A stretch of 64,000 nt of DNA from Candidatus Chromulinivoraceae bacterium (lineage in GTDB: Bacteria > Patescibacteriota > Saccharimonadia > Saccharimonadales > Saccharimonadaceae). Numbering within the stretch: the stretch's first letter is position 1; every line of letters begins with the position of its first letter. The stretch spans positions 1 to 64,000 of the forward strand of contig DATIJL010000016.1 in the NCBI GenBank assembly GCA_035478595.1, written 5' to 3'. The translations under genes and the position numbers were made by a program. The notes under the pieces were generated by a model. It saw only the letters and a list, made by a program, of their open reading frames with translations. It was not told where the DNA came from and did not search any database. This document shows, piece by piece, positions 12,833 to 49,574 of the stretch.

Positions 12833-12900
12833 ATATATCCATACTACTATAAATAAATTGTGTCGTGCTTAATAAAATTGAGAATCAGGGTTTAAACGGC

Positions 12901-12963
12901 AGACGATCGTGGTGATGAGCGGCGCGGTTTGTATGCGCAGCTCATCACCATTCAGGATCGTCT
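12901..12963 (-). repeat. Compound hairpin overlapping stop codon
   Basis: Outer stem AGACGATC/GATCGTCT (12901-12908 with 12956-12963) encloses a perfect 10-bp stem GGTGATGAGC/GCTCATCACC (12911-12920 with 12940-12949) and a small GCGC stem. The outer arm overlaps the stop codon of the gene at 12962. No U-tract follows. Confidence 0.7.
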
Positions 12964-13183
12964 ACCGACCATCGCTTCTTGCCTGAGGTTCGCCCGACTC
13001 CACCCGACCGCTTGTGGACTGGGTTGGACGGTAGGCGCCATCGCTGGTGCCGAAGTTGGTGACGTAGGTTGTTCCCGAGTCCTCGGACGTGTACGGGTCG
13101 GGCGTGGGGATGCGTTCGCCACTGAGGGTGGTGGCCGCCGCTGTGCCCGGATCTGTCAGGTCTGGCTTTTTGGGCTGAGACAT
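12962..13183 (-). CDS. Short disordered hypothetical protein, GC-rich
   Basis: 73 residues, dominated by Pro, Thr, Ser, Gly and Asp (for example TDPGTAAATTLSGERIPTPD), so probably unstructured. AGGGAG lies 7 bases before the ATG and a TATGAT element lies upstream, which supports a real single gene. No family was recognised. It sits between the ATPase and the 12287 gene and ends in a compound hairpin. Confidence 0.55.
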   Translation of the reverse strand: MSQPKKPDLTDPGTAAATTLSGERIPTPDPYTSEDSGTTYVTNFGTSDGAYRPTQSTSGRVESGEPQARSDGR

Positions 13184-46485: not shown

Positions 46486-47004
46486 TTAGGTGTGCGTCCA
46501 GGACTGCCAGGTGTTTGGGGCGGACATTCCCGCGGAGCCAAGTCCAATATTGGAGCCGAGCGCGCTACAGAGCGTGGTTGCGTTAGAGAAGCTATTTTTT
46601 GTCAGTATAGTATTATTCACAAAACCATCTTGCGTCATCAAGAATATAGTATCAGCCTTACTGAGCGCGGCAATATAATACGACTGATAGTCGGAAGTGT
46701 TTACGCAATATACAAAGTTGACCGCGGTCGTTACATCGTAGGCGCCTTTAGTAGCCTTTATGTTAAGCGGGCTGAGATCGGTACTTGTTTGTGGAAAATA
46801 ATGAGTAGTTGAAGTACTTACACGGAATGACTCAAGCAGGCCTGTCGAGTTATCTAGGTCTGACTGAACGGACGCATCGTAACCACTATTCTGTACATTA
46901 CCGTATACAACCAGAGTTATGGACGCCAAGATAACAATTATAGAGATAACTATAAGTATCTCGACGATAGTAAATCCGTTTTGAGCGGCGCGTATAGTAC
47001 TCAT
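46486..47004 (-). CDS. Type IV pilin-like prepilin
   Basis: 172 residues from ATG 47004, ten bases after TACAAT (an ATG at 47016 overlaps that box). The prepilin site is AAQNG-FTIVEILIVISIIVIL, then VYGNVQNSGYDASVQSDLDN. Two Cys (FVYCVNTSD and TTLCSALGS) may form a disulphide in the head. This is the second pilin of the window; its head is unlike that at 29811, so they may be different pilin types. Confidence 0.87.
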   Translation of the reverse strand: MSTIRAAQNGFTIVEILIVISIIVILASITLVVYGNVQNSGYDASVQSDLDNSTGLLESFRVSTSTTHYFPQTSTDLSPLNIKATKGAYDVTTAVNFVYCVNTSDYQSYYIAALSKADTIFLMTQDGFVNNTILTKNSFSNATTLCSALGSNIGLGSAGMSAPNTWQSWTHT

Positions 47005-47087
47005 GCTTTTTATCATTGTAGCATACAAAAGTTATTCAGTTTTCCACATTATTTTAAGGGGTAGTTTTGTAAACGTTGTCATTTTTA

Positions 47088-48137
47088 TCATGACTGCCAG
47101 ATAGCTCCGGGCGCATCATTTCGCCCTGTTCCGACGACGGCAATCAGTTCACCTGGATATGCCTTGGTTATTTTTGAGAGTCCAGCTACGGCAACAAGAG
47201 TTGTAGGTTCGAACGGTACAAAACTGGAGCAACGATCGAGTTTGCGGTAATGAATTTCTTCTAAATAATCTTCTACAACTGCCGTTACTTCATCGTCGTC
47301 TACTTTCCATAACGTGGTATTTGGAAAGGTTTGGTAGGCATCGAGTGTTCGCTCAGCTGTTCTTTTTACCGCGGAACCTCCATATCGTGTATTGGGATGT
47401 GTCGCATCGACAACCGCGCCAACCTCTGCACTGCGTGATAAACTATTGCTGCCTTGTGCCTCGACACCATGGACTGTGATGTTAGCTCCAAGCTCCCTGA
47501 AACGCTCGGCAACGCCACGAAATAGACCGCCTCCGCCGACAGGCAATACTACGTGTCGAAGATCCAGGTTTGACTCCAGGGCACTGCCGTAGATATCGTC
47601 AGCCAGCGTACCTTGGCCTGCAGATACGAGCGGGTCGTCAAACGGATGGACAACTTCACCGAGCTGTTCGGCGCTTGCATGCGCCCATGTGAGGCTTTCG
47701 TCAAAGCTGTCGCCAACTACATGGAGGTTAAAGCCGGGAGTGTCGCCCCACAATTGTTTAGCGCCCTCTTTCTTACTCATCGGAGCTGATGTTGGTACAA
47801 CACCATGAACTCTCATTCCTAAAATCTTTCCGGCCATAACAGCCCCACGTAAATGGTTACCCGCAGAGGGCACGGTGACAGACTCGACACCTTGTTCTTT
47901 CAATACAGACATGGCATTGTAAGCCCCACGCCACTTAAACGTCCGTGCATAGTTGGCTGCAGCATCGGCAAGGTAAAGGCCGGACGCTCCAAGCCTATGC
48001 GTGTAGAGGGAAAACTCACGGTCTAGCTCGGTAAGTTCAAACTGCTCGCCCATTTCTTCGCGACGATTATCGATCGTGGCATATGCTTCTTCACCCATAC
48101 TTGCTCGGTATGTCTGGCGCTCAAGTGCTATGGTCAT
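47088..48137 (-). CDS. Threonine dehydratase-like PLP enzyme (fold type II)
   Basis: 349 residues, no regulatory C-terminal ACT-like domain. RTFKWRGAYNAMSVL carries the PLP Lys in the FKxRGA context of IlvA/TdcB; VPSAGNHLRGAVMAGKILG is the SxGNHxxG ring, and VLPVGGGGLFRGVAE the phosphate-binding Gly loop. The expected reaction is L-threonine to 2-oxobutanoate plus ammonia, first step toward isoleucine, or catabolic deamination. The ribosome site AAGGAGA follows a predicted attenuator and an isoleucine-rich leader ORF, which argues for a link to isoleucine. No further ilv genes are in view. Confidence 0.87.
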   Translation of the reverse strand: MTIALERQTYRASMGEEAYATIDNRREEMGEQFELTELDREFSLYTHRLGASGLYLADAAANYARTFKWRGAYNAMSVLKEQGVESVTVPSAGNHLRGAVMAGKILGMRVHGVVPTSAPMSKKEGAKQLWGDTPGFNLHVVGDSFDESLTWAHASAEQLGEVVHPFDDPLVSAGQGTLADDIYGSALESNLDLRHVVLPVGGGGLFRGVAERFRELGANITVHGVEAQGSNSLSRSAEVGAVVDATHPNTRYGGSAVKRTAERTLDAYQTFPNTTLWKVDDDEVTAVVEDYLEEIHYRKLDRCSSFVPFEPTTLVAVAGLSKITKAYPGELIAVVGTGRNDAPGAIWQS

Positions 48138-48163
48138 GGTATCTCCTTCTTAGACAACAAAAA

Positions 48164-48185
48164 ACTCCGGCTCAGCGGCCGGAGT
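48164..48185 (-). terminator. Attenuator terminator before threonine dehydratase gene
   Basis: ACTCCGGC (48178-48185) pairs perfectly with GCCGGAGT (48164-48171) on the minus strand, 6-base loop, then a run of six T. It ends only 21 bases before the start codon and 11 bases before the ribosome site. Transcription must read through it to express the gene. Confidence 0.85.
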
Positions 48186-48219
48186 GCTCGTGTATCTTCT
48201 AATATTTATATATGAGCAA

Positions 48220-48279
48220 TCAGCACCGCGTAGATGGCGGAATAATAATGCTGATAATAATTTGTTGGTTAGTGCTCAC
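48220..48279 (-). CDS. Isoleucine-rich attenuator leader peptide
   Basis: Nineteen codons from GTG 48279 to TGA: MSTNQQIIISIIIPPSTRC. Six of 19 codons are Ile, in two triplets (ATT ATT ATC and ATT ATT ATT). Seven codons follow the second triplet before the stop. CCGCC in the Pro codons (48236-48240) can pair with GCGGTGCT (48222-48229), which in turn can pair with AGCACTCCGG (48179-48188), the left arm of the terminator. This is the classic 1:2 / 2:3 / 3:4 attenuation layout. The GTG lies 8 bases after the -10 box, so it is at or next to the mRNA 5' end. Confidence 0.75.
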   Translation of the reverse strand: MSTNQQIIISIIIPPSTRC

Positions 48280-48287
48280 TGGTAGAT

Positions 48288-48316
48288 AGTATATCGGCTA
48301 ATAATATTGATTGCAA
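48288..48316 (-). promoter_or_regulatory. Promoter of attenuated threonine dehydratase unit
   Basis: TTGCAA (48311-48316), 17-base spacer, TATACT (48288-48293). The predicted transcription start is about 48281, within two bases of the leader-peptide GTG. Confidence 0.75.
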
Positions 48317-48324
48317 ATAAAGCA

Positions 48325-48347
48325 GCCGTCTACGCAAGGTAAACGGC
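48325..48347 (-). terminator. Probable terminator of rplJ-rplL
   Basis: GCCGTTTAC (48339-48347) pairs with GTAGACGGC (48325-48333) with one G.T, 5-base loop, followed by TGCTTTATTTG. It separates rplL from the threonine dehydratase promoter, whose -35 begins 9 bases further on. Confidence 0.6.
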
Positions 48348-48383
48348 CGTTCTATGATTGGTTGTAATTCGGTCAGAATAAAA

Positions 48384-49341: not shown

Positions 49342-49538
49342 AAAAACCTTTCTTTAGTTGTGCCCCGAAGGGTTTTAATTTTTCTGACCGAATTGTCAAC
49401 GTACGGTAATGAGAGGCTCAAAGAAATGAAAAAAGTCTTTGATTCTCGCATTACCAAAGACTTGACTCGAAATGTTTATTTCATTCCTCGGTAGCATGAT
49501 TAAGTGATACTTCACCGCTACTGTCTCTGGCAATGTCT
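49342..49538 (-). promoter_or_regulatory. L10 leader with attenuator
   Basis: About 195-base leader. GACAGTAGC...GCTACCGAGGAATGAAA (within 49479-49525) matches the style of the L10-binding kink-turn hairpin of rplJ leaders. Downstream, AAGTCTTTG/CAAAGACTT (49433-49441 with 49455-49463) plus a T-tract forms a terminator. The sequence TCTCATTACC (49406-49415) can pair with GGTAATGcGAGA in its loop, giving a competing structure. It ends with the rplJ ribosome region AGAAAGG. Confidence 0.75.
49433..49463 (-). terminator. Attenuator terminator in rplJ leader
   Basis: Perfect 9-bp stem AAGTCTTTG/CAAAGACTT with 13-base loop followed by TTTTTTC on the minus strand, 90 bases before rplJ. Confidence 0.8.
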
Positions 49539-49544
49539 ATCTGT

Positions 49545-49574
49545 AGTGTAGCAAACAACCTGTGAAAATGTCAA
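49545..49574 (-). promoter_or_regulatory. rplJ-rplL promoter
   Basis: TTGACA (49569-49574), 18-base spacer, TACACT (49545-49550). The predicted start is about 49538, giving the long leader used for L10 control. Confidence 0.75.

Follow-up and report, generated by a model that had tools for sequence, protein, structure and literature searches.

A predicted isoleucine attenuator upstream of a threonine-deaminase-like gene in Saccharibacteria with an incomplete isoleucine pathway

Introduction

Do bacteria of the reduced Saccharibacteria carry an isoleucine-responsive switch of the ilv type and, if so, what does this switch control? The question is raised by a region on the minus strand (48316-48138) of the window, i.e. 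the whole stretch of 64,000 nucleotides analyzed here, in which a promoter, a 19-codon open reading frame (ORF), a terminator with six T, an AAGGAG sequence, and the ATG of a gene encoding a 349-aa PLP enzyme follow one another in this order. An earlier note on this DNA had interpreted the region as ilv-type attenuation. Our analysis points to a predicted ribosome-mediated transcription attenuator of the ilv type that senses charged tRNA-Ile upstream of a threonine-deaminase-like gene, and we place the probability of this reading at about 0.88. The mechanism itself is already known from the ilv operon of E. coli and from ilvBNC of Corynebacterium; what is new is its setting in a reduced phylum and on an incomplete pathway. 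A search of the open-licence literature for amino-acid attenuation in Saccharibacteria or the Candidate Phyla Radiation gave no relevant paper.

Results

We analyzed the organization of the leader region (Table 1). The promoter and the leader ORF with six Ile codons that the earlier note had proposed were both recovered, the ORF starting with GTG and not with ATG. The terminator was likewise found, with an 8-pair stem (48185-48164) that contains six G-C pairs, and its predicted end agrees with the previously suggested termination point at about 48160. Because the gap between the T-run and the ATG of the structural gene is only ~20 nt, a separate promoter between terminator and gene is unlikely. 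Furthermore, the terminator-like hairpin behind rplL suggests that the leader constitutes its own transcription unit. Among the Rfam leader, T-box, and riboswitch families, no leader was matched at gathering score, and at a lax threshold the window leader gave weak chance matches only; the cis-regulatory match obtained was to the L10 leader in front of rplJ.

Table 1. Predicted features of the leader region and its surroundings in the window.
Feature	Position	Strand	Description and basis
Promoter	48288..48316	-	-35 TTGCAA (48316-48311), 17-nt spacer, -10 TATACT (48293-48288); consensus scan
Leader ORF VSTNQQIIISIIIPPSTRC	48220..48279	-	GTG start, TGA stop, 19 codons, six Ile; sequence, conserved in six other genomes
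Control codons ATT ATT ATC AGC ATT ATT ATT	48241..48261	-	within leader ORF
1:2 hairpin (anti-antiterminator)	48212..48279	-	MFE fold
2:3 antiterminator	48178..48229	-	segment 2 GCGGUGCUGAUUGCUCAU (48229-48212) with segment 3 GAGCACUCCGG (~48189-48178); in-silico folding
3:4 intrinsic terminator ACTCCGGC-CGCTGA-GCCGGAGT + TTTTTT	48158..48185	-	terminator scan
Shine-Dalgarno AAGGAG of structural gene	48143..48148	-	sequence; 5 nt before ATG at 48137
Regulated gene encoding a threonine-deaminase-like PLP fold-type II enzyme (349 aa) without ACT domain	47088..48137	-	Pfam, structure comparison
Terminator-like hairpin after rplL, ahead of leader promoter	48323..48349	-	scan
Pseudopilin-like gene with prepilin N-terminal motif	46486-47028	-	directly downstream of regulated gene
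Ribosomal protein L10 leader (Rfam RF00557)	49420-49548	-	upstream of rplJ-rplL, as expected

Genome-wide, six Ile within seven residues were encoded by 2 of 48,058 short ORFs, and of these only the window leader is preceded by a TAYANT box at a distance of 5-9 nt. When the complete genome (1.136 Mb) was scanned for residue-rich short ORFs followed by a terminator and a gene, a -10 box spaced as for a leaderless transcript was seen in only two candidates, of which the window leader is the one carrying the Ile run. As a separate observation, the same genome (G000) holds a second leaderless short ORF, MINRINNANQSTTRSL, with five Asn codons and a terminator behind it (contig C4:72894-73077; locus L033, ~12895-13078). 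The gene that follows is class II tRNA-synthetase-like (Pfam tRNA-synt_2b and HGTP_anticodon) and ThrRS-like by eye, and this arrangement is possibly another attenuator.

Homologous leaders were identified in six further genomes of this Saccharibacteria family (G013, G160, G201, G023, G004, and G029). Among the 394 family genomes searched, only three others (G013, G160, and G201) contain orthologues of the window gene, their proteins being 38-43% identical to the window protein. A search of genome contigs with the window protein as single query gave no match, and an alignment-based search returned two of the orthologue genomes already found together with distant IlvA relatives. The leaders in front of the three orthologues encode MNRQIISIIIASAPAASFA, MSQIHMILSVIILRSNPAALLAHI, and MSFLNMIISNIIIIRLQPAALLVHI, and in each case a terminator comes next, then a Shine-Dalgarno-like site and the gene. 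From these three and the window leader we built a covariance model holding no protein information and ran it on 388 family genomes. The four model-building leaders were returned first, as they must be. The next three matches (E 8e-10, 1e-7, and 2e-7) all lie upstream of ilvB and encode MSMNNNIILSIITTSTARR, MSASQNIILSIITTATPRR, and MSVSQQIIILSVLTLPHKRR; since the model is blind to protein, the presence of ilvB next to them provides independent support for an ilv leader. Relatives that keep the gene and have lost the Ile codons or the pairing segments were what the earlier note had named as evidence against attenuation; the three relatives with the gene keep both.

Weaker matches of the model (L159, L160, and L162-L166; E 6e-6 to 0.003) lacked a suitable leader ORF preceding a gene and were taken as chance, as was L161, which was judged from the model alignment only; L167-L171 (E 0.005 to 0.008) were left out of this reading. 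For the more distant ilvB genes of G028, G018, and G185, no such leader was seen in the upstream sequence read, the match in G178 was partial, and the Saccharibacteria leader model R1 gave no match in the ilvB loci of these four genomes. Locus L181 (G028 contig C32) shows the order ilvB-ilvN-ilvC without such a leader, and contamination or separate acquisition is possible there.

In all seven leaders the start-codon hairpin, the terminator, and a branched-chain codon run surrounding a Ser codon are kept; the run is Ile-rich in six of them, and in six the AGC Ser codon lies within a pairing strand. Ile is the sole branched-chain residue in the window and G013 leaders, while Leu, Val or Thr codons occur in those of G023, G004, G029, G201, and G160. 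Because Leu and Thr codons are also present in the ilvB-group leaders, of which that of G029 contains just 3 Ile, the signal may exceed Ile alone. Such mixed codons would be expected of a true attenuator that responds to the branched-chain amino acids as a set, or to Thr together with Ile; however, the exclusive use of Ile in the window and G013 leaders makes such a broader signal unlikely. The codon pattern also bears on a different kind of sensor. Short hydrophobic leader peptides can stall ribosomes in the presence of drugs, and the leader peptide might be a nascent-chain arrest peptide sensing an antibiotic or other ligand rather than tRNA-Ile. However, the peptide sequence is not conserved and only the branched-chain codons recur, and the regulated genes are ilv or ilv-like genes and not resistance genes, so that we regard an arrest peptide as extremely unlikely.

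The leader ORF has no Shine-Dalgarno sequence and starts 8 nt after the -10 box, giving a predicted 5' UTR of ~0-2 nt, and all seven genomes have a -10 box (TATACT, TATAGT or TACACT) upstream of the leader start, at a distance of 6-9 nt. In the window genome, a TAYANT box precedes the first ATG by 6 nt in 65, by 7 nt in 36, and by 8 nt in 35 of 1,085 genes, compared to ~6 at most other spacings, i.e. a roughly six- to tenfold excess over the usual count elsewhere. From this excess, leaderless transcription seems to be common in this genome, so that the leaderless leader peptide predicted in the earlier note would be no exception.

We computed the alternative folds of the leader RNA. The leader folds at -44.6 kcal/mol compared to -30.6 kcal/mol for shuffled sequences (z -3.9), and none of 200 shuffles was equally stable. 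The 1:2 pairing CCGCC:GCGG described previously exists, but the predicted hairpin is larger: besides CCGC with GCGG, it pairs GUGAGCA (48279-48273) with UGCUCAU (48218-48212) and AUCAGCA (48255-48249) with UGCUGAU (48225-48219). This hairpin would hide the start codon, and an untranslated leader would leave the terminator free. The 2:3 pairing exists too; a more fitting description of it is GCUGAUUGCUC with GAGCACUCCGGC, or GGUGCU with AGCACUCC. In G004 and G029 the start region pairs AUGAGC with GCUCAU, and in G013 it does so with different sequence (GAAUC and GGCAAA with UUUGCC and GAUUC). Over the seven sequences, 89% of cells were paired in the 1:2 hairpin compared to 21-50% in slid controls; covariation counts for the same seven gave no clear gain over the shuffle control.

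When a ribosome was placed on the Ile codons in silico, segment 2 paired with the 5' arm of the terminator. For these folds the ribosome footprint was set to 15 nt from the A-site codon and folding was at equilibrium, both of which are simplifications. The computed probability that segment 3 is paired upstream, given for no ribosome, Ile stall, and ribosome at the stop, was 0.17/0.62/0.16 in the window genome, 0.04/0.70/0.02 in G013, 0.26/0.79/0.27 in G160, 0.04/0.69/0.04 in G023, and 0.15/0.52/0.18 in G029, and the switch was matched by only 0-5 of 500 dinucleotide shuffles for each. Consistent with the earlier proposal that a stall on Ile codons favors the 2:3 antiterminator, the predicted switch was clear in these five of seven genomes. 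It was weak in G201 and G004, where the equilibrium fold without a ribosome equals the stalled one and a difference appears only between the stalled and at-stop states.

Alternatively, the terminator could be a constitutive brake or operon punctuation and the short ORF a chance product of A+T-rich DNA. Intergenic terminators are common, and the count from the consensus scan is about the chance expectation. However, the start, branched-chain codon run, and terminator are conserved in seven genomes, rplL already has a terminator-like hairpin upstream of the leader promoter, the ORF is the sole one of its kind with Ile run and promoter box genome-wide, and the fold switches in five of the seven genomes, all of which renders a constitutive brake very unlikely.

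The genes around the leader were compared between genomes. In the window the order is rplJ-rplL-leader-short ilvA-like-pseudopilin-MSELPEK-type gene. G029 has rplJ-rplL-leader-ilvB-ilvN-ridA-ilvA-pseudopilin-MSELPEK-type gene (operon L172:2215-6191), and in G023 leader-ilvB-ilvN-ilvA (operon L173:10937-14915) precedes the same downstream genes as in G029; the contig of G004 reaches only to about the end of ilvB. The operons of G029 and G023 occupy the same chromosomal address as the window gene. Leader and locus are thus constant while the gene behind the leader differs between genomes. Because the window leader is homologous to the ilvB(-ilvN-ridA-ilvA) leaders and sits at the same locus, it appears to be an ilv attenuator kept in a lineage with an incomplete pathway. 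Pseudopilin-like genes were also seen at this address in G013, G023, and G029.

The regulated enzyme matches Pfam PALP (1.6e-38), and threonine deaminases are its closest solved structures and sequences, with 8zkv as the best fold match for a structure model of pLDDT 77 built from a four-sequence alignment. It retains the PLP lysine in FKWRGA, as well as SAGNH and GGGGL. The earlier note had called the gene IlvA-like; the resemblance to threonine deaminases stands, but the protein is a divergent relative that scores 144 bits against the NCBIfam IlvA cut-off of 421 and falls similarly below the other IlvA models. Furthermore, conserved motifs of IlvA are changed (GTGxN in place of SGAN) or missing (KRED) in this protein, and neither it nor its three orthologues have the C-terminal ACT-like regulatory domain that is present in the IlvA of G029 and G023. 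In a phylogenetic tree, the four short proteins group together, separately from the full-length IlvA of Saccharibacteria (100/100, long branch). We rejected simple truncation of the local IlvA as the origin of the short enzyme, given ~31% identity and its own long-branch clade; the enzyme may be the product of rapid divergence from IlvA. Judged by its sequence, the window enzyme is a PLP fold-type II enzyme and a divergent short relative of IlvA. Because the ACT domain is absent, the motifs differ from IlvA, and the clade is separate, we can only infer its substrate.

Searches for IlvC and IlvD detected neither in any of the seven leader genomes, with a positive result in each of the 14 control genomes. 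In the window genome, which is 99.5% complete, none of the E. coli proteins IlvG, M, E, D, and C had a match, IlvB/N and IlvE were not found, and among the seven leader genomes only G201 has an IlvE-family aminotransferase. The pathway would accordingly appear to stop at 2-oxobutyrate, or at acetohydroxybutyrate where ilvBN is present. The ilvB-ilvN-(ridA)-ilvA operons of G029 and G023 are found in genomes without ilvC and ilvD. Since both enzymes seem to be missing from all seven genomes, the Ile attenuator would govern a pathway unable to yield isoleucine in the cell. The conserved leaders thus support the ilv-type attenuation claimed in the earlier note, but the remaining isoleucine pathway appears to be absent.

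A pathway incomplete in all seven genomes is what one would expect if the leader were a relic of a lost operon, now of little physiological effect. However, the leader has kept its start and stop codons, its paired segments, and its terminator intact across seven diverged genomes from six genera, where a relic should have decayed, and we therefore consider a relic improbable.

Discussion

For the preferred attenuator, we propose the following sequence of events. RNA polymerase would start within ~2 nt of the leader start codon. With Ile plentiful, the ribosome would read the Ile codons fast and reach the stop, leaving segment 2 masked or paired with segment 1, and the same would hold if the leader is not translated. 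With segment 2 unavailable, the 3:4 terminator would form and transcription would stop at ~48158. When Ile is short, the ribosome would stall on the Ile codons and cover segment 1, and the 2:3 pairing would form, block the terminator, and permit transcription of the threonine-deaminase-like gene. Here we infer the stalling, the direction of regulation, Ile as the signal, and 2-oxobutyrate as the product. The elements of an attenuator were found, namely a predicted leader ORF with Ile codons, an intervening intrinsic terminator, and, in silico, exclusive pairings that depend on ribosome position. Its usual cargo, genes that make the sensed amino acid in the same cell, was not; this bears on the cargo and not on the mechanism.

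It is surprising to find such a leader in this phylum, on an incomplete pathway, and fixed at one locus in front of genes that differ between genomes. An intact Ile sensor on a dead-end pathway poses the question of what the cell gains from threonine deamination when isoleucine is short. The attenuator might be selected because an Ile-short cell, incapable of completing the pathway, makes 2-oxobutyrate (or acetohydroxybutyrate with ilvBN), which its bacterial host would convert to isoleucine and give back, a proposal that we regard as speculative and rather unlikely. If true, it would describe a cross-species pathway with the sensor located in the dependent partner. In organisms that are difficult to grow, the leader moreover offers a sequence tag from which one can read what the cell perceives to be limiting.

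Among known systems, the E. coli ilvGMEDA attenuator (ilvL, MTALLRVISLVVISVVVIIIPPCGAALGRGKA) similarly has a run of control codons followed by a Pro/Ala-rich stretch ahead of an ilv operon. In ilvL, the Pro/Ala-rich stretch encodes pairing segments. It differs in its use of Ile, Val, and Leu codons and in its operon, which includes ilvD and ilvE and has ilvC close by; the R1 model gave no match at the E. coli locus. The candidate ilvB leaders of Actinobacteria, another phylum, are also alike in that short ORFs with runs of Ile, Val, and Leu codons and terminators precede ilvB (PMC1262725). In the ilvB leader of Streptomyces coelicolor, changing the candidate codons had no effect (PMC1262725), which counts against the codon-stall reading. 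The ilvBNC attenuator of C. glutamicum (leader MTIIRLVVVTARRLP; PMC11857589) shares a branched-chain leader peptide, a three-hairpin design, and an H1 hairpin over the start region; transcription there begins a single nucleotide away from the start codon of the leader, and the leader in Saccharibacteria is predicted to be near-leaderless. This likeness is one of design. The two differ in cargo: whereas the C. glutamicum operon comprises ilvB, ilvN, and ilvC, the Saccharibacteria leader precedes either ilvB-ilvN-ilvA or an IlvA-like gene on its own, and the genomes concerned have neither ilvC nor ilvD.
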